Assembly: GCA_026710565.1 (NCBI GenBank)
Contig: JAPOQV010000241.1
Location: 1 to 16,650, forward strand
Source of the DNA: Spirochaetaceae bacterium
GTDB lineage: Bacteria; Spirochaetota; Spirochaetia; SZUA-6; Bin103
Length of the DNA stretch: 16,650 nt
Reading direction: 5' to 3'
This document shows, one piece after another, positions 1,227-15,719 of the stretch. The notes below the pieces were generated by a model. The model saw only the letters and a list, made by a program, of their open reading frames with translations. It ran no database searches and had not been told where the DNA came from. Each line of letters starts with the position of its first letter. Within the stretch, counting starts at the first letter, position 1. Made by a program: the position numbers and the translations under genes.

Positions 1227-2111
1227 GTGCCGGTGATCTTCGGTCCGACCGCCGTGGGCAAGTCGGCGGCGATCGGCGCGGTTGCGGGCGAGCATGACGA
1301 GATCGTCAGTGCTGATGCCCTGCAGGTGTACCGTCACCTTGACATCGGCACCGCAAAACCGACGCGCGCCGAGCGTGAGCGCTTCCGCCACCACCTGATC
1401 GACGTCGCCGATCCCGGCGAACAGTTCGATGCCGGCCGTTTCGTCCGCTGCGCCGACGCCGCGCTGCACGACATCGACGCCCGCGGACGCCGCCCGATCG
1501 TCGCCGGAGGGTGCGCGTACTACCTGCGCACCCTGGTATGCGGACTGCCGGAGTCGCCGCGCGGCGATCCGGACATCCGCGCCCGGCTGACGCGGAGGAT
1601 GCACGCGGAAGGCAGGGAGGCGCTGCGGGGCGAGTTGCAGGAAGCCGACCCGAAGTCGGCTCGTCGCATCCATGTCAACGACACCTACCGGATCGTGCGG
1701 GCGCTGGAGGTCCTGGCCGCTACCGGCCGGCCGCTCTCATCGTTCCGGGTGCCCGATCGCCCGGCCGATCCCGGCCGCTTCCGCCTGGTCGGGCTGCAGC
1801 GCCCGCGCGAGGATCTGGTCGTCCGTATCGACGCACGGGTGGAGGCGATGCGCGCCGCGGGATTCGCGGATGAAGTCCGCGAGCTGCTGGCGCGCGGCTA
1901 TGACGCCACCTGCCCGGGGCTGCGCGGCATCGGCTACCGGGAGCTCGCGGCGGCCGGGGGAACGGGGTCGACGGAAGCGTGGGAGGCGATCAAGCGCAGC
2001 ACGAGACGCTACGCAAAGCGCCAGATGACGTTCTTTCGGTCGCTCCCCGGCGTGACCTGGATCGACGCCGACGACCGGGCGGCCCTGCGAGCCCTGATCG
2101 GCGAGCCCTGA
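1227..2111 (+). CDS. miaA: tRNA dimethylallyltransferase
   Basis: Transfers a dimethylallyl group from DMAPP to N6 of A37 in tRNAs that read U-starting codons. The 294-residue length is typical. Seen: P-loop GPTAVGKS (residues 6-13), then ADALQVYRHLDIGTAKP, the substrate-binding segment equivalent to D-S-M-Q-V-Y-R-G-M-D-I-G-T-A-K-P; HHLIDVADP; the V-A-G-G-C-A-Y-Y-L-R loop (usual VGGTGLYL); NDTYRIVRALEV; and the C-terminal zipper-like region RSTRRYAKRQMTFFR, the family's KxxTRxYAKRQxTWFR. The start is GTG 1227; GTG 1233 is also possible, and no ATG is available upstream in frame. The gene follows rpoZ by 34 bases and ends inside a 14-base tandem repeat. Confidence 0.95.
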   Translation: MPVIFGPTAVGKSAAIGAVAGEHDEIVSADALQVYRHLDIGTAKPTRAERERFRHHLIDVADPGEQFDAGRFVRCADAALHDIDARGRRPIVAGGCAYYLRTLVCGLPESPRGDPDIRARLTRRMHAEGREALRGELQEADPKSARRIHVNDTYRIVRALEVLAATGRPLSSFRVPDRPADPGRFRLVGLQRPREDLVVRIDARVEAMRAAGFADEVRELLARGYDATCPGLRGIGYRELAAAGGTGSTEAWEAIKRSTRRYAKRQMTFFRSLPGVTWIDADDRAALRALIGEP

Positions 2112-2134
2112 TTGGCGATTCCTGATCGGCCGGT
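2093..2134 (+). repeat. 14-base tandem repeat, three units, across the miaA stop codon
   Basis: Three imperfect units of 14 bases, CCTGATCGGCGAGC (2093-2106), CCTGATTGGCGATT (2107-2120) and CCTGATCGGCCGGT (2121-2134). The miaA stop TGA (2109-2111) is part of unit 2; the same TGA occurs in each unit in a different reading frame, because 14 is not a multiple of three. No inverted repeat strong enough to be a terminator was seen. Confidence 0.75.
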
Positions 2135-3716: not shown

Positions 3717-4526
3717 TTGACGCGCACCATTCGGGCAACGGTCGCCTACGACGGGACCGACTTTGCCGGTTGGCAGATCCAGGAAAGGCAGCGGACCGTT
3801 CAGGGCGTATTCGAGCAGGCGCTCGCGCGCATGCACGGCGAACGCGTGCCCGTCAGGGCCGCCGGCCGCACCGATGCCGGCGTTCACGCGCTCGGCCAGG
3901 TCGTGAGCTTCCGCACCGGGATCGACAGCCTGACACCGCCGGTCCTGCCGCGAGCGCTCAACTCGTATCTTCCCCATGACGTGCGGGTGGTCGACGCGCT
4001 GGAGGCGGAGGACGGATTCGACGCACGGCGCTCCGCGCGGTTGCGGGTGTATCGGTACCAGTTGCTGCCGGGCCGGCAGCTTCCCCACCTGCGGCGGTAC
4101 ACGCTGTGGGTGCGCCGGCCGCTGCGGCTGGCGACGCTCAACCGGATGGCGTCGGCCATCGTCGGCGAGCATGACTTCACGACCTTCGCGGCCGCCGGCG
4201 CGTCCGGGGCGTCGATACGGCGTGTCGAGCAGGCCTCCTTCCTTGCCGATGGACCGCTGATCGTGTTCCGCATCGCCGCCCGGTCGTTTCTGTGGAAGAT
4301 GGTGCGCAGCCTGGTGGGGACGATGCTGGCGCTGGAAGCCGAGTGCGGAGAAAGCCTCGAGGCGGCCCGGGCGCGAATGGAGCATCTGCTTGCCGAACCG
4401 GACCGCGATCGGGTGGGGCAGACCGCGCCGGCCTGGGGTCTGTTCCTCGAACGGGTGTGCTACGCCGACGATCCGCCGCCGGCCGGCACGCTGCCGTATG
4501 ATCGTGGACGGAGATCCGCCGGATGA
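3717..4526 (+). CDS. truA: tRNA pseudouridine(38-40) synthase
   Basis: Converts uridines 38-40 of the tRNA anticodon arm to pseudouridine. 269 residues, normal for TruA. Seen: TVAYDGTDFAGWQIQ at the N-terminus, TVQGVFEQAL, the catalytic loop AAGRTDAGVHALGQV with Asp53, the FDARRSARLRVYRY segment (usual FdaRfsA.sRrYrY), HDFTTFAAAG, and FLWKMVRSLVGTML (family: FLxxMVRxIVGxLL). The start is TTG 3717: this frame has no ATG or GTG between the end of acpS and the conserved N-terminal strand. The last bases overlap the next gene as ATGA. Confidence 0.94.
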   Translation: MTRTIRATVAYDGTDFAGWQIQERQRTVQGVFEQALARMHGERVPVRAAGRTDAGVHALGQVVSFRTGIDSLTPPVLPRALNSYLPHDVRVVDALEAEDGFDARRSARLRVYRYQLLPGRQLPHLRRYTLWVRRPLRLATLNRMASAIVGEHDFTTFAAAGASGASIRRVEQASFLADGPLIVFRIAARSFLWKMVRSLVGTMLALEAECGESLEAARARMEHLLAEPDRDRVGQTAPAWGLFLERVCYADDPPPAGTLPYDRGRRSAG

Positions 4527-5269
4527 GCGACCTGACTGCCCGGTACTGGAAACTGCTGCGGCTGGCCGAGGACTACTTCGACGGTCAGACGCGCGGCGAG
4601 CGGGAGTACGCGGTCCCCGTGCTCCGTTCCCGCACACCGGCGGGGGAGCCGGCTCGGGAGCCGGGCGGCGGCGCCGCTCACGCGGAGCTCCCTCGGGAGC
4701 AGCCGGGATCGACCGTGGACGCGCTGGCTGCGATCGGCGACGAGGTGTCCGGGTGCCGGCTCTGCAGGCTGTGTGAGGGCCGTACCACCGCCGTCCCCGG
4801 CGAGGGGGTGCCGAACCCGGAGGTGATGGTGATCGGCGAGGGTCCGGGCGCGGCCGAGGACCGCAGCGGCCGGCCGTTCGTGGGGCCGGCCGGCCAGTAC
4901 CTGGACAGGTGGCTGGCCGCGATCGAGCTCGACCGCCGCCGGAACTGCTTCATCGCCAACGTGGTCAAGTGCCGGCCGCCCGGCAACCGCGATCCCCACC
5001 CGGACGAGGTCGCCGCCTGCATGCCGTACCTGGCGCGCCAGATCGACCTGCTGCGTCCGCGGGCGTTGCTCGCCGTTGGCCGGGTGGCCGCCAACCACCT
5101 GCTCGGCGTGGCCCGCACGCTGGCCGAGCATCGGTCCGGGCGGCACGAGCACCGCGGGCTGCCGCTGTTCGTGACCTACCACCCGAGCGCCGTGCTGCGC
5201 GATTCGTCGCTCCGGGCGCCGGTCTGGGAGGACTTGCAGAAGCTGCGCGCCCATCTCGACCACACGTAG
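4523..5269 (+). CDS. Type-4 (Fe-S) uracil-DNA glycosylase
   Basis: Removes uracil from DNA after cytosine deamination, the first step of base excision repair. Features of family 4: four probable [4Fe-4S] cysteines, Cys78 and Cys81 (CRLCRLCEGRT), Cys150 (NVVKCRPPGNRDP) and Cys166 (VAAC); motif 1 GEGPGAAEDRSGRPFVGPAG (residues 105-124); and motif 3 TYHPSAVLR (residues 218-226). The first 70 residues are a helix followed by a Gly/Pro/Glu-rich linker (about residues 36-64) not needed for catalysis, as seen in many bacterial members where this domain precedes the enzyme core. It starts at ATG 4523, overlapping the truA stop by 4 bases. The stop codon TAG (5267-5269) lies in the first unit of a 16-base tandem repeat. 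Confidence 0.92.
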   Translation: MSDLTARYWKLLRLAEDYFDGQTRGEREYAVPVLRSRTPAGEPAREPGGGAAHAELPREQPGSTVDALAAIGDEVSGCRLCRLCEGRTTAVPGEGVPNPEVMVIGEGPGAAEDRSGRPFVGPAGQYLDRWLAAIELDRRRNCFIANVVKCRPPGNRDPHPDEVAACMPYLARQIDLLRPRALLAVGRVAANHLLGVARTLAEHRSGRHEHRGLPLFVTYHPSAVLRDSSLRAPVWEDLQKLRAHLDHT

Positions 5270-5344
5270 ATGGGGCCAGACGTAGATGGGGCCAGACGTA
5301 GATGGGGCCAGACGTAGATGGGGCCAGACGTAGATGGGGCCAGA
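5265..5344 (+). repeat. 16-base minisatellite, five perfect units, between UDG and priA
   Basis: Five identical head-to-tail copies of CGTAGATGGGGCCAGA at 5265-5280, 5281-5296, 5297-5312, 5313-5328 and 5329-5344, followed by a diverged remnant (CGCAAATGTGGG, 5345-5356). Each unit contains TAGATG, a stop next to a start. The UDG stop is the TAG of unit 1 and the best priA start is the ATG of unit 5. A run of four G occurs in each unit. Sixteen is not a multiple of three, so the array cannot code in one frame. Confidence 0.97.
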
Positions 5345-7334
5345 CGCAAATGTGGGTAGCCTGACCGTGTCCGGGTTCGTGGATCTGGCCTTCAACCTGC
5401 CGATCGACAAGCGGTTCACCTACCAGGTCCCGGAAGCGAAGTGCGCTGAGGATGGCGGCGCCGCGATCGGAGCCCGCGCGACCGCTCCGTTCAAGGGCCG
5501 GACGCTCACCGGGTTCATCGTGGCTGCCCGCGACCAGCCGCCGGAGGGCGTAGAGCCGCGCGCGCTGTCCCGCATCGTCGACCGGGAGCCGCTGGTCGAT
5601 CGCGGGATGCTGGAGCTGGCGCGCTGGATCGCGGACACCTACCTGTGCTCGCTCGGCGAGGCGCTGGCGGCGATCGTCCCGGGCGGCCGTCGCGAGTCGC
5701 TGCTGCAGGACGCGGTGCAGCCGGCGGTGGCCCGCGCGCATCGGCTGACCCCCGCGCAAAGCGCCGCGCTCGAAGGCATCCTGCGGGAGCCGGCCGCGAC
5801 CTCCTACCTGTTCGGGGTGACCGGCTCGGGCAAGACGGCGGTGTTCCTTGAGGCGACGCGCAGCACCCTGGCCGGCGGCCGTGCGGTGATCTACCTGGTG
5901 CCCGAGATCGGCCTGACCCACCAGGTGGTCGCCGCCTTCACCGCGGCCTTCGGCGAGCTGGTGGCGGTCATTCACTCGGGCCTGACGCCGTCTCAGCGGC
6001 TCAGGGAGTGGCGGCGTCTGCAGCACGGCCGCGCACGCATCGCCGTCGGCGCGCGCAGCGCGGTGTTCGCCCCGGTGCGCACGCTTGGCCTGATCGTCAT
6101 CGACGAGGAGCACGACGGGTCCTACAAGTCGTCCTCCAGCCCGCGCTACCACGCCCGGCAGGTCGCGGCGCATCGCTGCCTGCTCGCCGGAGCCCGCCTG
6201 GTGATGGGGAGCGCCACGCCGTCGGCAGAGGCGGTTCTGCGCATGCGGTCCGGCGCGATCCGGCGCTACGACCTGCCGCGCCGGGTGGGCGGCGGCGCGC
6301 CGCCCCGCGTGCACCTGGTGCAGAGCAGCCGGCACCGCGGCGTGCTGGGGCCGGAGCTCACCGACGCGCTGCGCCGCGTGCACGCGGAGGGCCGGCAGAG
6401 CATCCTGTTCCTCAACCGCCGGGGTTTCTCGCACTACTTCCACTGCCGCTCCTGCGACTACGCGCTGACCTGCGAGCGCTGCTCGGTCACGCTGACCCTG
6501 CACCGGCCGTCCGGGGCGCTCGTCTGCCACTACTGCGGCTACCGGGCCAAGCCGCTGCAGGCGTGCCCGGAGTGCCGTTCGCTGGACGTCCGCTACGCCG
6601 GGTTCGGCACCCAGCGGGTCGAGGTCGAGTTGCGGCGCGTGCTACCGGATGCCCGCATCGAGCGCGCGGACGCCGACTCGGTGCGCGCGCGGGGTAGGTT
6701 TGCGGAGCTGTTGGAAGCGCTCCGCGACGGCAGCATCGACGTCCTGGTCGGCACGCAGATGGTCGCCAAGGGCCTGGACCTTCCGGGGGTGAAGCTGGTC
6801 GGCGTGGTCGACGCTGACACGTCCCTGCGCCTGCCCGACTTCCGCGCCGCCGAGCGGACCTTCGCGCTGGGGGTGCAGGGGGCCGGCCGCGCCGGCCGGG
6901 CCGCCGCCGACGGAGAGGTGTACATCCAGAGCGCGCATCCCGAGGCGGCCCCGATCGCCCACGCGGCCGCCGGGCGGGTCGCGGAGTTCATGGCCGGCGA
7001 GCTGGCCGCGCGCCGCGAGCAGCGCTTTCCGCCGTTCGTGCGCCTGGTCCGGCTGGTCGTGCGCGGCCGCGACGAGGACAAGGTCACCGATGCGATCGAA
7101 CGGCTGGCCTCGGTGCTGGCGGCGGAGCCGTCGATGGCCGCCGCCGGCGTGGACGGGCTCGGGCCGGCCCCCTGTCCGATCGCCAAGGTGGCGCGCAACC
7201 ACCGCCACCACCTGCTGGTGCGCGCGCCGGCGATGCGCCCCATCCTGGCCACGCTGCAGCGCCGCCTGGGCAGCATTCGGCTGGAGCGGGGCGTGCACCT
7301 GGAGCTCGATCCCGACCCGGTGGCCGTGCTGTAG
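5334..7334 (+). CDS. priA: Primosomal protein N', replication restart helicase PriA
   Basis: A 3'-to-5' superfamily 2 helicase that recognises stalled forks and reloads DnaB. 666 residues, somewhat shorter than E. coli PriA (732). In order: N-terminal DNA-binding domain (VDLAFNLPIDKRFTYQVP, residues 16-33), Walker A GVTGSGKT (161-168), Walker B/DEEH box (257-260) followed by SYKSSSSPRYHARQVA, MGSATPS (291-297), and eight zinc-binding cysteines (371, 374, 380, 383, 398, 401, 411, 414) for two zinc ions. Then come GTQMVAKGLDLPGV (473-486), DADTSLRLPDFRAAERTF and an arginine-finger motif QGAGRAGRA where QVAGRAGR is usual. An in-frame TAG at 5331-5333 excludes any earlier start, so ATG 5334 (inside the last minisatellite unit), GTG 5352 or GTG 5367 are the candidates. 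Confidence 0.95.
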   Translation: MGPDANVGSLTVSGFVDLAFNLPIDKRFTYQVPEAKCAEDGGAAIGARATAPFKGRTLTGFIVAARDQPPEGVEPRALSRIVDREPLVDRGMLELARWIADTYLCSLGEALAAIVPGGRRESLLQDAVQPAVARAHRLTPAQSAALEGILREPAATSYLFGVTGSGKTAVFLEATRSTLAGGRAVIYLVPEIGLTHQVVAAFTAAFGELVAVIHSGLTPSQRLREWRRLQHGRARIAVGARSAVFAPVRTLGLIVIDEEHDGSYKSSSSPRYHARQVAAHRCLLAGARLVMGSATPSAEAVLRMRSGAIRRYDLPRRVGGGAPPRVHLVQSSRHRGVLGPELTDALRRVHAEGRQSILFLNRRGFSHYFHCRSCDYALTCERCSVTLTLHRPSGALVCHYCGYRAKPLQACPECRSLDVRYAGFGTQRVEVELRRVLPDARIERADADSVRARGRFAELLEALRDGSIDVLVGTQMVAKGLDLPGVKLVGVVDADTSLRLPDFRAAERTFALGVQGAGRAGRAAADGEVYIQSAHPEAAPIAHAAAGRVAEFMAGELAARREQRFPPFVRLVRLVVRGRDEDKVTDAIERLASVLAAEPSMAAAGVDGLGPAPCPIAKVARNHRHHLLVRAPAMRPILATLQRRLGSIRLERGVHLELDPDPVAVL

Positions 7335-7339
7335 AATCG

Positions 7340-7834
7340 ATGCGGATGCTGGATCTGGTCACCTACCCCGACCCTCGCCTGAACGCGCAGTCGGAGCCTG
7401 CCGACCCGGACGAGGTGCGCGATCTGGTCGGTGCGATGTTCGAGACGATGTACGCCGAGGAAGGGATCGGACTGGCGGCCGTGCAGGTCGGCCGGCCGCT
7501 GCGCGTGTTCATCACCAAGGTCCGGGACGACCGCGAGCGCGTCTACATCAATCCGGAGATCGTCGAGACCTCGATCGAGGAGGACACCGCGGAGGAGGGC
7601 TGCCTGAGCATTCCCGACGTACGCGCCGACGTCACCCGGCCGGCCCGCGTGGGCGTGCAGGCGACCAACCTCAAGGGCCGCACCTTCCGCCTGAATGCCC
7701 AGGGGTTGCTGGCGCGGGCGATCCAGCATGAGCTGGACCACCTGAACGGCCGGCTCTTCATCGACCACCTGGACGAGCGGGAACGTGAGGCCCTGCTCGC
7801 CGACTACGCGGGATCGCCGCGGCGCGAGCGTTGA
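7340..7834 (+). CDS. def: Peptide deformylase
   Basis: Removes the formyl group from N-formylmethionine of new proteins. All three family motifs are present: GIGLAAVQ (residues 42-49), EGCLSIP (86-92; metal ligand Cys88) and QHELDHLNG (129-137; ligands His130 and His134, catalytic Glu131). 164 residues is normal. The start is ATG 7340, with ATG 7346 two codons on as an alternative; the gene begins 5 bases after the priA stop. In many bacteria fmt follows directly; here two other genes lie between. Confidence 0.95.
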   Translation: MRMLDLVTYPDPRLNAQSEPADPDEVRDLVGAMFETMYAEEGIGLAAVQVGRPLRVFITKVRDDRERVYINPEIVETSIEEDTAEEGCLSIPDVRADVTRPARVGVQATNLKGRTFRLNAQGLLARAIQHELDHLNGRLFIDHLDEREREALLADYAGSPRRER

Positions 7835-7842
7835 ACGAACGC

Positions 7843-8358
7843 ATGCCGCGGTATGTCGAGATCACCCTGCGCAAGCGCAGCGTCGCGTGTGTCGCCGCGC
7901 TGCTCGACGAGCACGCGCCTCACACCTGCCGGGCGGTGTGGGAAGCGCTCCCTCAGGAAGGGGACGTGTACCACGCCAAGTACGCCAGCAACGAAATCTA
8001 CGCGCTCGTGCCGGCGTTTCCCGCCGAGCCGCCGGGCGTCGAGAACGGCAGCATCGTGCCGGCCAAGGGCGACGTGGGCTATTTCCACCTGCCGGCCGGG
8101 ACGCGCCTGCCGGCCGATGCGCAGCGCAGCCTGGGCGGGCAGGCGGTTGTGGACCTGGCGCTGTTCTACGACCGCAACAACATCCTGCTGTCGCCGAGCG
8201 AGGGGTACCTGACCTGCAACGTCTTCGCCACCGTCGTGCGCAACCTGGAGCAGGTCACCGTCGCCGGCAACGACATCTGGCGCGCCGGCGCCATCGGTGA
8301 ACGGCTCGCCTTCCGCCGTCTCGAAGGGGCTGCGCTGGAGCGCTGGGGACTGGCGTGA
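7843..8358 (+). CDS. DUF3830 family cyclophilin-like protein
   Basis: 171 residues from ATG 7843. The pattern YVEITLRKRSVACVAALLDEHAPHTC, AVWEALPQEGDVYHAKYASNEIYALVP, ENGSIVPAKGDVGYFHLPAG and LFYDRNNILLSPSEGYLTCNVFATV fits the DUF3830 family, a beta-barrel fold related to cyclophilin. The biochemical function of DUF3830 is not known to me; members often sit beside amidase, racemase or transporter genes in amino-acid or amide catabolism. TTG 7831 would overlap the def stop (TTGA) and add MNER; ATG 7843 was chosen because it directly precedes the conserved strand. The stop overlaps the next gene by 4 bases (GTGA), so the two are probably made together. Confidence 0.82.
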   Translation: MPRYVEITLRKRSVACVAALLDEHAPHTCRAVWEALPQEGDVYHAKYASNEIYALVPAFPAEPPGVENGSIVPAKGDVGYFHLPAGTRLPADAQRSLGGQAVVDLALFYDRNNILLSPSEGYLTCNVFATVVRNLEQVTVAGNDIWRAGAIGERLAFRRLEGAALERWGLA

Positions 8359-9119
8359 AGCGCCTCACCATCGGCGGCGTGTGGCCCGACGACGCCTGGG
8401 TCGACCGCGACAAGCAGCCGATGTGTGCCGACTTCGCCCGCTACCTGCCGCCGGATGTCGACCTGGTCACGGCATCGCATCCGGTCTTGCCGGGTCCCAA
8501 TACCGTGGTCCTCGGCCGCGCGATCGCGGATGGCGGCACGGTGGAGGAGGCGGCGCGGCGCATGTTGCGCTACCGGCCGGACGGCATCGCCTACTACTGC
8601 ACCACGATCAGCTTCGTGCGCGGCCCCGGAGGAGACCGGCGCCTTGCCGACGCCATGGCGTCGGCGACCGATCTGCCGGTGACCACGACCAGCACCGCGA
8701 TGGTCGCCGCGTTTCAGGCCCTCGGGGTGAGGAGGATCTCCGTGGCCAGCCCCTACCTGCCGGACGTCGAGGCGATGTTCGTGAGCTTCATCGAGCACCA
8801 CGGTGTGGCGGTGCTGGCCAGCGAGTCGATGCACCTGCCGGACGACCACTCGATCGTGCCGCCGCAGGCGATGGCGGAGATGGCCGTGGCCGCCGACCGG
8901 CCGCACGCCGAGGCCATCTTCGTGGGCTGCAGCGGCCAGCGGCTGGCGGGGCACCTGGCGCATATCGAGGAGGCCGTCGGCAAGCCGGTGCTGAGCGCCA
9001 ATCAGGTGACCGGCTGGCACATGCTGCGTATCCTCGGCCGTACGGAGCGCATGCCCCGGCTCGGCTCACTTGCCGACGTCTGCCCCGCGCACGCGGCCGA
9101 GCCTCCGACCGCACCGTAA
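8355..9119 (+). CDS. Asp/Glu racemase superfamily protein, maleate isomerase/arylmalonate decarboxylase-like
   Basis: 254 residues of the cofactor-independent Asp/Glu/hydantoin racemase superfamily. Seen: AYYCTTISFVRGPGGDRRL with Cys82, LPVTTTSTAMVAAFQALGVRRISVASPY, and EAIFVGCSGQRL with Cys192, then GKPVLSANQVTGWHMLRILG. Two opposed cysteines are the catalytic pair of maleate cis-trans isomerases and racemases; arylmalonate decarboxylases keep only one. Both are present here, so isomerase or racemase chemistry on a dicarboxylic acid or amino acid derivative is likelier than decarboxylation; the substrate cannot be told from sequence. It overlaps the DUF3830 gene by 4 bases, which suggests joint function. 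It ends 63 bases before fmt. Confidence 0.85.
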   Translation: MKRLTIGGVWPDDAWVDRDKQPMCADFARYLPPDVDLVTASHPVLPGPNTVVLGRAIADGGTVEEAARRMLRYRPDGIAYYCTTISFVRGPGGDRRLADAMASATDLPVTTTSTAMVAAFQALGVRRISVASPYLPDVEAMFVSFIEHHGVAVLASESMHLPDDHSIVPPQAMAEMAVAADRPHAEAIFVGCSGQRLAGHLAHIEEAVGKPVLSANQVTGWHMLRILGRTERMPRLGSLADVCPAHAAEPPTAP

Positions 9120-9182
9120 GGGAGCGATCCCGGCGGCATCCCGGAACTGCCGATCGCGCGACACATCCGCCATACTGGCATC

Positions 9183-10112
9183 GTGCGTGTGCTGTTCGCC
9201 GGTGCGCCGTCGTTCGCCGTGCCGGCGCTGGTGTCGGTGGCGGAACGGTTCGAGGTCCGCGGCGTGCTCACGGCTCCGGACCGGCCCGCCGGGCGCGGCC
9301 GCCGGATGACCCCGACGCCGGTGCGGCAGGAGGCCGACCGCCTGGGGCTGCCGGTGATCGCTCCCGGACGGCTCGATGAGGCCGCGACGCAGGAACTGGC
9401 CGGCCTGCGCGCCGAGGTCCTGGCGGTGGCCGCCTACGGCGTGATCTTCACGCAGCGCTTTCTCCGCCTGTTCGCGCGCGGCGCGGTGAACGTGCATCCG
9501 TCGCTCTTGCCCCGGTATCGCGGAGCCGCGCCGATCCCCGCGGCCATCCTCGCCGGCGACGGGGAGACCGGCGTCACCATCCAGCGGGTGGTACGGCGCT
9601 TGGACTCGGGGCCGATCCTGGCCAGGCGGGTCCACTCCCTCGACGGCACCGAGACCACCGGTCAGTTGACGGAGGCCTTGGCGGAGACCGGTGCCGAACT
9701 GCTGGTCGAGGCGCTGACCGGCATACAACTGGGAACGGTCATGGAGGAAGCCCAGGTCGAGGAGCGGGCAACGTACTGCGCGAAGGTGACGGCCGCGGAC
9801 GGCCGGATCGACTGGAGCAGCCACGACGCAGCCGTCATCGAGCGCATGGTTCGCGCCTATGATCCCTGGCCGCGTGCCCACTGCCGGCTGGGCGAGCGGC
9901 GTGTCAATCTGCTGGCGGCGCGTCCGAGCGCCGGTCTGCCGGCGGGGGAGCCGGGCCGGATCGCCCGCGTGGACGGCCGTCACGGGATCCTGGTACACAC
10001 GGCGCGGGGCACGTTGGGAGTCACCGAACTGCAGCTCGAAGGCAGGCGCGCGATGGACTGGAAGTCGTTCGCCAACGGCTACGGAGGACTTGCGGGAGTA
10101 CGGCTCACGTGA
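9183..10112 (+). CDS. fmt: Methionyl-tRNA formyltransferase
   Basis: Formylates initiator Met-tRNA using 10-formyl-tetrahydrofolate. 309 residues with an N-terminal formyltransferase domain and a C-terminal tRNA-binding domain. Catalytic pattern: NVHPSLLPRYRGAAPIPAAI carries Asn103 and His105, and Asp141 in RRLDSGPIL matches the third residue, with the same spacing as Asn106/His108/Asp144 of E. coli. The N-terminal RVLFAGAPSFAVPAL and the C-terminal ATYCAKVTAADGRIDW are also family hallmarks. The start is GTG 9183, the only candidate at the beginning of the first strand. The 63 bases before it show no gene; a weak CATACT could be a -10 but has no good -35. The stop overlaps the next start by 4 bases. 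Confidence 0.95.
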   Translation: MRVLFAGAPSFAVPALVSVAERFEVRGVLTAPDRPAGRGRRMTPTPVRQEADRLGLPVIAPGRLDEAATQELAGLRAEVLAVAAYGVIFTQRFLRLFARGAVNVHPSLLPRYRGAAPIPAAILAGDGETGVTIQRVVRRLDSGPILARRVHSLDGTETTGQLTEALAETGAELLVEALTGIQLGTVMEEAQVEERATYCAKVTAADGRIDWSSHDAAVIERMVRAYDPWPRAHCRLGERRVNLLAARPSAGLPAGEPGRIARVDGRHGILVHTARGTLGVTELQLEGRRAMDWKSFANGYGGLAGVRLT

Positions 10113-11137: not shown

Positions 11138-11209
11138 GCGAGCGTCGTATAATGGTTATTACCCGAGCTTCCCAAGCTCGTGACGGGGGTTCGATTCCCC
11201 TCGCTCGCT
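11138..11209 (+). tRNA. tRNA-Gly (anticodon CCC)
   Basis: A 72-base cloverleaf. The acceptor stem GCGAGCG (11138-11144) pairs with CGCTCGC (11202-11208), and the discriminator base is T11209. The anticodon stem CGAGC/GCTCG (11164-11168/11176-11180) encloses loop TTCCCAA, giving anticodon CCC (11171-11173), which reads GGG. The T arm GGGGG-TTCGATT-CCCCT (11185-11201) has one G-T wobble; the D arm has the GG pair in AATGGTT. The sequence closely resembles E. coli tRNA-Gly(CCC). CCA is not encoded and would be added after transcription. Confidence 0.95.
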
Positions 11210-13210: not shown

Positions 13211-14884
13211 TCAGAATTCGTTGGCCGGGGTGATCGACGGGTCCCACCGTTCTGCGGTCAGCAGGCCGATCGCCGCGTCCAGCGCCGCCGGCGATCCGAT
13301 GCGCCGCAGCGCCTCCACCGCATAGGTCGCGACCTGACCGCAGCGGTCGTCGAGCGCGTGGATCAGTTCGTCCTGTGCGGGGGAGGCCGCCGGGCCCAGG
13401 CGAGCGAGCGCCGTGGCGGCGTTCACGCGCACCTGATCGCGAACGCTCCAGGTTCTCATCTCCGCCTCTTCCCATGCGGGCCGCTTCAGCCGGAACAGCG
13501 CTCCCAGCGGCGCTGCCGCTTCAGGCGCACCGATGGCGCCCAGCGCATCCGCCACGGTCCGCACCACGAGATGGGACGGGTCGTCCAGCGCGTCGATCAG
13601 CGCCGGGACGGCCGCCAGAGCCTGCCGGTCCATCTCGCCCAACGCGAACGCGGCGTTCATCCGAGCCCACCCGTCCCCGCCTTCCAGCAGGTCCAGCAGG
13701 GGATGGAGCGCCGCGGTGCCGATTGCGCACAGGGCATAGGCGGCGTCGTCGAGCCGCAGCGCGGTCTCGATCGATCCGTGACGGCGATGCTGCTCGGCCA
13801 TCCGTGTCCGCATCATCGAAGCGGCGTCGCCGCGGCCGCGCAGCGAGTCGATCAATGCGGAACCCGCCGGCTCGCCGATCGCTCCCAGCGCGTAGACGGC
13901 CGCCACCCGAACCGGGTCGGGGCGGCGATTGAGGCAGCTCATCAGAGCGGAAGTCGCCGGCGCCGCATCCCCTGCCAGGGTCGCCAGCGTTTCGGCTGCG
14001 GCCACCCGGTCCGCGTCCGGACGGTCGTGCTCCAACGCGGACACCAGCGCGCCCACGCCGACGCGAGGCTCGCGGTGCGGCAACGCGCCGTTGCGAAGGC
14101 TGGCGTAGCGGTCGCCGGCGCCGCGCAGCCAGTCCCAGAGATGCGACCAGGCGAGCGACATCCGATCGCCACCGTAGCGCTCCGGGTCGCTCCACCGGTG
14201 CTCGGGTCCCGCCCGGCCGTCTGCCCGCGGCAGCGACGCACGCTGGTAGATGAACTTGACCATGAACCGCCGTTGTCCGGTCAGGTTGATGCCGGCCGCG
14301 TGGCCGACGTCGAAGTGGGTGATGGACACCGTGCCGGCCGGCCCGGCGACCGGCAGCGGCCGCGCGCGCTCGGCTTCGCTGAGGGTGGTGTTCAGATGCG
14401 TCCCCGGAATCACATGGGTGGGCCCCAGGGACTCGGGCGTGTCCTGCGGGTAGTACATGACCCGCGCGTACCGGATGTGGTGGTGACGCGGCCGGGCGAG
14501 CGGCGTGTACGAGTCCTGGTGGCAGTTGGCTGCGAGCTTCGCTCTCCGATCCATGTCAGGCCGATCCAGTCCGGGGTCCTCCGGCGGCTCCTCCACGTGG
14601 CAGAAACGGTGCGGGTGCTCAAGGTAGTCCGGTCCCAGCAGGGTCTGGAGGGCGCCGCTCACCTCCGGAGACTTCAGCACGTGCCGCATCTCCGGCACCA
14701 GCGGCAGGATGTTGTTGCCGGGGTTGCCCTTCCGATCCGGGATCGACTCGTCGAGCCGCCGCCGGATGGACTCGTGCAACTCGCGCGGCAGCGACGGCCG
14801 CAGGATCAGGTAACCGTCGGCGACGAACCGCCGCACCTGCTCGTCGCTCAGGGGAATCGCGGTGCCGTTGGTTCCGTTGTTCAT
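13211..14884 (-). CDS. Phytanoyl-CoA dioxygenase family protein fused to HEAT repeats
   Basis: 557 residues from ATG 14884, 13 bases after the aldolase stop and preceded by GAGGG. The N-terminal half (about 10-270) is an Fe(II)/2-oxoglutarate oxygenase of the PhyH type: DEQVRRFVADGYLILRPSLP at the start, iron ligands His122 and Asp124 in NCHQDS, and the distal His195 in THFDVGHAAGINLTGQRRFM, with Arg205/206 as likely 2-oxoglutarate contact. SLGPTHVIPGTHL is the familiar PhyH loop. The C-terminal half (about 275-550) is a run of HEAT-like helical repeats with recurring VRVAAVYALGAIGEPA, ARMNAAFALGEM, VVRTVADALGAIG and VRVNAATALARLGPAA. HEAT arrays bind proteins or ligands. PhyH members hydroxylate many small molecules; the substrate is unknown. 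An in-frame earlier start (14941) would add 19 residues inside the aldolase gene and is unlikely. Confidence 0.88.
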   Translation of the reverse strand: MNNGTNGTAIPLSDEQVRRFVADGYLILRPSLPRELHESIRRRLDESIPDRKGNPGNNILPLVPEMRHVLKSPEVSGALQTLLGPDYLEHPHRFCHVEEPPEDPGLDRPDMDRRAKLAANCHQDSYTPLARPRHHHIRYARVMYYPQDTPESLGPTHVIPGTHLNTTLSEAERARPLPVAGPAGTVSITHFDVGHAAGINLTGQRRFMVKFIYQRASLPRADGRAGPEHRWSDPERYGGDRMSLAWSHLWDWLRGAGDRYASLRNGALPHREPRVGVGALVSALEHDRPDADRVAAAETLATLAGDAAPATSALMSCLNRRPDPVRVAAVYALGAIGEPAGSALIDSLRGRGDAASMMRTRMAEQHRRHGSIETALRLDDAAYALCAIGTAALHPLLDLLEGGDGWARMNAAFALGEMDRQALAAVPALIDALDDPSHLVVRTVADALGAIGAPEAAAPLGALFRLKRPAWEEAEMRTWSVRDQVRVNAATALARLGPAASPAQDELIHALDDRCGQVATYAVEALRRIGSPAALDAAIGLLTAERWDPSITPANEF

Positions 14885-14897
14885 GGTGGCCCTCACT

Positions 14898-15719
14898 CTA
14901 CTCCGCTCGATACGCGGCCACGGCCGCCCGTGCGCCTTCATGCAGCAGGGCCAGCTCGTCGACCAGCTCGAAGAACCGGCAACCCCTTCGGACCCAGTCG
15001 GCGGCCGCGTCGGGCCCCGACGGCGTGGTGCCGAACGCCACGCCGTGTTGCAGGCACAGGTCGAGCACGGTGCCGAGCGCTGCCTTCATGTCGGGGTGAT
15101 CGTACTCGCCCGGATGGCCCAGGGAGATCGCCGTGTCGTAGGGGCCCACGTACACCATGTCGAGGTGTGGGGTGGCGACGATCTCGGCTGCCCGATCGAG
15201 TCCGGCCATCGTCTCGATGTGGGCGATCACGGCGGTGGCCGCGTTGCTGCGCCGCAGCCAGTCGGCATCGTCCTCAGGGTACGTGTAGTCGGCGCCGCCG
15301 TAGCCCGGTGCGCCGGCGCGGCTGCCGAGCGGCGGGTACTTCACCAGATCGACCAACTCGGCGCCCTGCTCCGCCGATTCGGTGCGCGGGAGCTGGATTC
15401 CCACCACTCCGGCATCCAGCAGCCGCGCCACCTCGGAGCGGTTCAGCTCGCCTACCTTGGAGATGACCGGAATGCCGTTGTCGCGGGCGCAGAGCGCGAA
15501 GTCGGGCAGCTCGCTGCCTTCCAACATGCCGTGCTCCTTCTCGATGAAGATGAAGTCGAAACCGGCGTTGCGGAAGATCTTGACCAGCGACGGCCGCAGG
15601 TACTCGACCGCCATCGCGCCGAGCAGCGGCGAACCGCTCTGCACGCGTCGCCTGAAACGGCGTCCGAGCGCCGTCGGGTCATGCTGCGCGCCGCGGTCGT
15701 TCTCTCCGGTCCTGGCCAT
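14898..15719 (-). CDS. HpcH/HpaI aldolase/citrate lyase family protein
   Basis: 273 residues of the class II, metal-dependent aldolase family that cleaves or forms 2-keto-3-deoxy acids and related compounds (2,4-dihydroxyhept-2-enedioate aldolase, KDR aldolase). Seen: GFDFIFIEKEHGML (strand with Glu and the general-base His), VVGIQLPRTESAEQGAELVD, the Gly-rich GSRAGAPGYGG, IAHIETMAGLDRAAEI with the metal ligand Glu, and HLDMVYVGPYDTAISLGHPG with the metal ligand Asp and the GPxDxxxSLG signature. ATG 15719 was chosen because AGGAGG lies six bases upstream; GTG 15725 would overlap the upstream stop as GTGA but has no room for that Shine-Dalgarno. Direct neighbours (mannosidase, PhyH, SDR remnant) suggest sugar or sugar-acid breakdown, by inference. 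Confidence 0.9.
   Translation of the reverse strand: MARTGENDRGAQHDPTALGRRFRRRVQSGSPLLGAMAVEYLRPSLVKIFRNAGFDFIFIEKEHGMLEGSELPDFALCARDNGIPVISKVGELNRSEVARLLDAGVVGIQLPRTESAEQGAELVDLVKYPPLGSRAGAPGYGGADYTYPEDDADWLRRSNAATAVIAHIETMAGLDRAAEIVATPHLDMVYVGPYDTAISLGHPGEYDHPDMKAALGTVLDLCLQHGVAFGTTPSGPDAAADWVRRGCRFFELVDELALLHEGARAAVAAYRAE

Follow-up and report, generated by a model that had tools for sequence, protein, structure and literature searches.

Among the described systems closest to the locus analyzed here are the mycobacterial interspersed repetitive units (MIRU), repeats with units of about 40–100 bp that are dispersed across many genome sites and carry small open reading frames (ORFs) overlapping the stop and start codons of the neighboring genes. 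For the senX3-regX3 spacer, three 77-bp MIRU are described in H37Rv and two of 77 bp plus one of 53 bp in CDC1551, and promoter activity has been reported for this spacer (PMC4213456). The second relevant system is the termination–reinitiation coupling of adjacent genes, which is reported to be most efficient at small distances (PMC12548453). A distance of −8 to +10 nt is taken as predictive of coupling; in its direct form, coupling is reported to have almost disappeared when the genes are some 20 nt apart and, at 38 nt, to be either strongly reduced or lost (PMC10666635).

The 16,650-nucleotide stretch of DNA analyzed here (hereafter, the window; contig JAPOQV010000241.1 of the Spirochaetaceae assembly GCA_026710565.1) contains, between the genes for a type-4 uracil-DNA glycosylase (UDG) and PriA, both on the forward strand, an intergenic minisatellite, an element of a known kind that can be compared to the MIRU located between operon genes but is distinguished by a repeated unit that most likely is the stop–start junction itself. 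As in senX3-regX3, where the make-up of the MIRU is strain-dependent, the tandem repeats are located between two genes of an operon, and the small ORFs predicted in the array abut the stop and start of the flanking genes in a MIRU-like manner. Unlike MIRU, however, the array has a 16-bp unit, outside the MIRU sizes given above (53 and 77 bp in senX3-regX3), and is apparently a copy of the local junction rather than a member of a dispersed family. Furthermore, in contrast to the promoter activity reported for the senX3-regX3 spacer, no promoter-like site was found at the array, and a consensus scan of positions 4900–5700 detected neither a promoter nor a terminator. Judged on the one sequence of the locus at hand, the identical head-to-tail inner copies and diverged ends resemble those of a bacterial minisatellite (VNTR), but, unlike in the usual bacterial minisatellite, the unit itself holds the stop of one gene and the start of the next.

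Five identical copies of CGTAGATGGGGCCAGA, each with TAGATG, were read directly at positions 5265–5344, in agreement with the sequence-only reading that had first drawn attention to them, and TRF delineated the array at 5260–5346 (period 16, 5.4 copies, 98 % matches, score 167). The same array can be read in an alternative register, at 5260–5355, as six 16-base copies (c0–c5) with diverged end copies. In this register, c0 (5260–5275, CCACACGTAGATGGGG) matches the unit at 15 of 16 positions and comprises the native 3′ end of UDG, of the kind found in relatives, plus TAG–ATG; c1–c4 (5276–5339) are four identical copies of CCAGACGTAGATGGGG; and c5 (5340–5355, CCAGACGCAAATGTGG), with 13 of 16 matches, is the diverged last copy that lacks TAG and is followed by GTAGCCTGACC and then by GTG 5367. 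The perfect identity that had been attributed to all copies accordingly applies to the inner copies c1–c4 and not to c0 and c5. Consisting of head-to-tail copies within the 10–100 bp range and in excess of chance, the array qualifies as a minisatellite, and the pattern TAGATG-N10-TAGATG occurs four times in the window compared with none in 200 dinucleotide-preserving shuffles. On a common TRF scale (period 8–60, at least 3 copies, score of at least 150), 419,001 bases of G540, the nearest genome compared, yielded four rows (three 24-mers within one 20-kb stretch and one 15-mer), and 80 assorted loci with 1,376,050 bases yielded three. Folding of the array as DNA gave nothing unusual (z of 0.14 and 0.36); the outermost five bases on either side, CCACA (5260–5264) and TGTGG (5351–5355), are complementary and fall where c0 and c5 have diverged, an unexplained feature that might be due to chance.

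The named relatives of the window PriA belong to Spirochaetia. G540, whose family and order are represented by 4 and 26 genomes, respectively, encodes a PriA that is 85 % identical and a UDG that is 78–81 % identical to those of the window, and the truA-UDG-priA-def operons of the two are collinear. The array is absent in G540: the blastn blocks end at 5259 and restart at 5358 on the window side, and at 9718 and 9722 on the G540 side, and the global alignment has a 95-bp gap at 5261–5355, a net gain of 95 bp in the window. At the G540 junction, UDG ends with GGA GCC TGA and, two bases on, priA begins with GTG GCG CGG TTC; because this UDG ends in LDGA with TGA, TAG–ATG is not the G540 junction. 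Farther along, the window carries between def and fmt two genes (7820–9181), one with a DUF3830 product and one similar to arylmalonate decarboxylase, which are missing from the corresponding position in G540.

The UDG–priA spacing was examined in 24 loci of 16 genomes, of which 12 allowed measurement of both genes and 4 had one gene per stretch; its endpoints are the stop of UDG and whichever priA codon aligns to GTG 5367 of the window, so that it is based on alignment, not on annotated starts. In 11 of the 12 measurable genomes, the spacing falls between −8 and +23 nt (G540, +2; G402, +19; G462, +20; G622, +23; G390, −2; G624, −4; G588, +9; G552, −8; G486, −8; G526, +21; G612, +10), the twelfth, from the distant G371, being +138 nt. 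The junction is thus tight in the relatives, as in termination–reinitiation coupling, with most spacings inside or close to the range of −8 to +10 nt that is taken as predictive (PMC10666635), whereas in the window the direct distance from the UDG stop, 64 nt to ATG 5334 or 97 nt to GTG 5367, lies outside this range.

The UDG gene (4523–5269, forward strand), the product of which matches TIGR00758 above the curated NCBIfam cut-off, ends with LDHT-stop, and its final codons and stop (TAG 5267–5269) are inside c0, so that the stop is indeed supplied by the first unit of the array, as had been proposed; by sequence comparison, c0 is the UDG gene's own end. Among the 13 closest UDG clusters (P0121–P0133), 8 end in LDQT (P0122–P0127, P0130, P0133) and the remaining 5 in LDHT (P0121, which is 98 % identical to the window UDG), LDET, LDQA, LDA and LDT; farther clusters, including that of G540, have endings such as LDGA. 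Read in the UDG register, c1–c4 encode Gln-Thr-stop (CAG ACG TAG), the LDQT-type ending of the relatives, and the inner copies hence look as though they preserve an apparently ancestral Gln.

The longest priA ORF (5334–7334, forward strand, 666 aa; PriA matches TIGR00595 above the curated NCBIfam cut-off) opens with ATG 5334 in c4, immediately 3′ of the in-frame TAG 5331–5333. The proposal that the fifth unit provides the priA start is supported by this arrangement and by P0001, a PriA that is 99 % identical and has the same N-terminus as specified from ATG 5334, MGPDANVGSL; it is weakened by homology, which points to GTG 5367 (5367–7334, forward strand, 655 aa). Because priA of G540 starts at the aligned codon, as do 7 of the 11 PriA clusters nearest to the window (P0003, P0005–P0010; identity of at least 72 % throughout P0001–P0011), GTG 5367, which lies outside the array, is favored as the original start of priA. 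P0002 and P0011 begin 5 and 2 residues upstream of its equivalent, P0004 has a short N-terminus, and GTG 5352 is a further candidate in the window. The predicted pairing with the anti-Shine-Dalgarno string amounts to −5.6 kcal/mol for the G540 GTG, −3.8 for GTG 5367 and −4.7 for ATG 5334, in the latter case via the GGGG of the preceding unit, and ATG 5334 may be used as the priA start at present.

Taken with these comparisons, the array is probably a local minisatellite that arose by tandem duplication of the native UDG–priA junction and is tolerated by both genes. Since the first copy is the UDG end and c1–c4 carry the LDQT-type ending, the unit most likely represents the native junction amplified in place, which explains why, however many copies there are, the first one terminates UDG and a start for priA comes after it. 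From the proteins of the relatives, we infer a single-copy ancestor in which UDG would have ended with approximately CAG ACG TAG, directly followed by a priA start. A 16-bp stretch spanning the stop–start point would then have been duplicated and have grown to six copies, probably by strand slippage, the inner copies remaining or becoming identical and the end copies drifting. With a stop and a start in each complete unit, the bodies of UDG and PriA would have stayed unaltered and the expansion would have been tolerated, even as it pushed GTG 5367, the presumed original start, to 97 nt past the UDG stop. Translation of priA would now proceed by independent initiation at GTG 5367, GTG 5352 or ATG 5334, the last of which would use GGGG from the unit before it as a weak ribosome-binding site, or by hops between mini-ORFs. 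Such an origin implies one CAGACGTAGATG before priA at the junctions of the LDQT relatives. The beginning of PriA P0002, MGCLSVARF, fits, at the protein level, ATG-GG right behind a stop; counting against the proposed origin, TAG–ATG is not the junction of G540, and c5 deviates both from the unit and, by 2 nt in its tail, from the sequence implied by P0002. The array is unusual but probably neutral, although identical inner copies would also follow from maintained function.

The earlier suggestion of a dispersed repeat that landed here fared less well. Insertion of a dispersed or mobile short repeat between UDG and priA would account for the 95 bp that the window has in excess of G540, and the complementary outer CCACA and TGTGG might be taken in its favor, but it appears very unlikely given that c0 holds the final codons of UDG, an ending with a length and near-identical residues shared with relatives. 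Moreover, a search of the four family genomes for the 16-base unit with up to 2 mismatches produced 13 matches, all at 2 mismatches, fewer than the 20 of the backwards control, and exact searches returned no 26-mer in IMG/VR and no 20-mer in 8 other genomes or records. No viral contigs encoding this UDG were found, and in a PriA scan of genome contigs none of the 80 matches listed was named as a spirochaete.

An assembly or sequencing artefact, to which we assign hardly any probability, would be in line with the 7 of 666 residues at which the window PriA differs from P0001, among them glycines in LLVQVAGRAGR that are constant across P0001–P0011, a hint of base errors in the contig. However, P0001 retains the array-derived N-terminus and P0121 retains LDHT, so that each end of the array is also represented in sequences other than this contig, even if the copy number is not readable from proteins. 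Besides, reads of the usual kind should easily cross an array of 96 bp.

Under a functional interpretation, the TAG–ATG units would form a termination–reinitiation relay that passes ribosomes from UDG to priA via mini-ORFs, coupling the two genes with an output perhaps set by the copy number. Two such mini-ORFs are predicted on the forward strand: one at 5270–5317, with an ATG directly 3′ of the UDG stop, 15 codons and TAG 5315–5317, and one at 5318–5359, with 13 codons and TAG 5357–5359, which is 7 nt before GTG 5367. The hops in this chain are 0, 0 and 7 nt; as 16 exceeds a multiple of 3 by one, a frame opened by an ATG next to a stop closes at the stop located three units later. When the array is varied from 2 to 12 copies, the chain ends in rotation in the PriA frame, 7 nt short of GTG 5367 or 2 nt short of it, and the relay would maintain coupling that a 97-nt spacer would otherwise abolish, the relatives having a tight junction here. 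We nevertheless consider the relay possible but unlikely. Shuffled spacers chain as well, in 118 of 2000 cases (ATG only) or 372 of 2000 (ATG or GTG) when hops between −5 and +7 nt are allowed (6–19 %), and in 203 and 538 of 2000, respectively, with hops up to +10 nt, and the real chain breaks when hops are restricted to at most +2 nt. Recomputation for 2–12 copies bore out the earlier claim that gain or loss of whole units leaves both proteins intact, but any duplication covering a stop together with a start is automatically frame-neutral, so that this property is no sign of function. No second stop-start junction array was detected among the loci examined. No support was found for tuning of the UDG/priA coupling by copy number, also suggested at the outset. 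A more elaborate version, in which mini-ORFs of 13–20 codons at every copy number and three states of priA output (in-frame start, 7 nt and 2 nt), changing with the gain or loss of units, would constitute a translational phase-variation switch that breaks neither protein, is quite improbable. The predicted RNA fold of 5240–5390 is not unusual (z of −0.14), and at the Rfam gathering threshold the array has no match, the sole match being a tRNA at 11138–11209.

With local duplication as the preferred reading, the locus suggests how an operon can acquire a long spacer harmlessly, since neither protein is by construction affected when a stop and a start are duplicated together. The junction also offers a natural test piece for ribosomes crossing consecutive mini-ORFs, which would be relevant if the copy number is variable.

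A recurrent class of such arrays was considered and rejected: the triple TAGATG pattern was present in 36 of 394 Spirochaetia genomes compared with 28 for the backwards control. In 30 loci, a single one per genome from 30 of the matching genomes, 26 arrays had a frame open throughout, which fits coding repeats, and 4 were closed; inspection by eye of 3 of the closed loci (L165 being left out) revealed no gene–gene stop–start junction. In one locus, L163 of G539, the 23-mer TAGATGATTGTTGAATCCAGAAG is present in 13 copies, soon after a tRNA-like sequence, with all frames closed. No array built of a stop–start junction came up in the literature searched, which included a minority of subscription papers.

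Other repeats were observed in the window and in G540. At the end of miaA (2087–2130), TRF detected three 14-bp tandem copies (86 % matches) with TGA in each, where the alignment with G540 has a gap of 20 bp (window 2104–2123). This repeat looks older than the UDG–priA array, and gene ends of this lineage seem prone to slips. The 15-mer array of G540 (L105, 17052–17144; 6.2 copies, 97 %) is located just upstream of the homolog of the window gene 13211–14941, and TRF lists no array at that position of the window, making it another lineage-specific array. Finally, the window contains, at 2212–2301, a very basic ORF of 29 residues (MPCGRKRKRHKIATHKRKKKLRKNRHKKG) that has no Pfam match and presumably resembles small basic proteins of the COX24/AURKAIP1 type.
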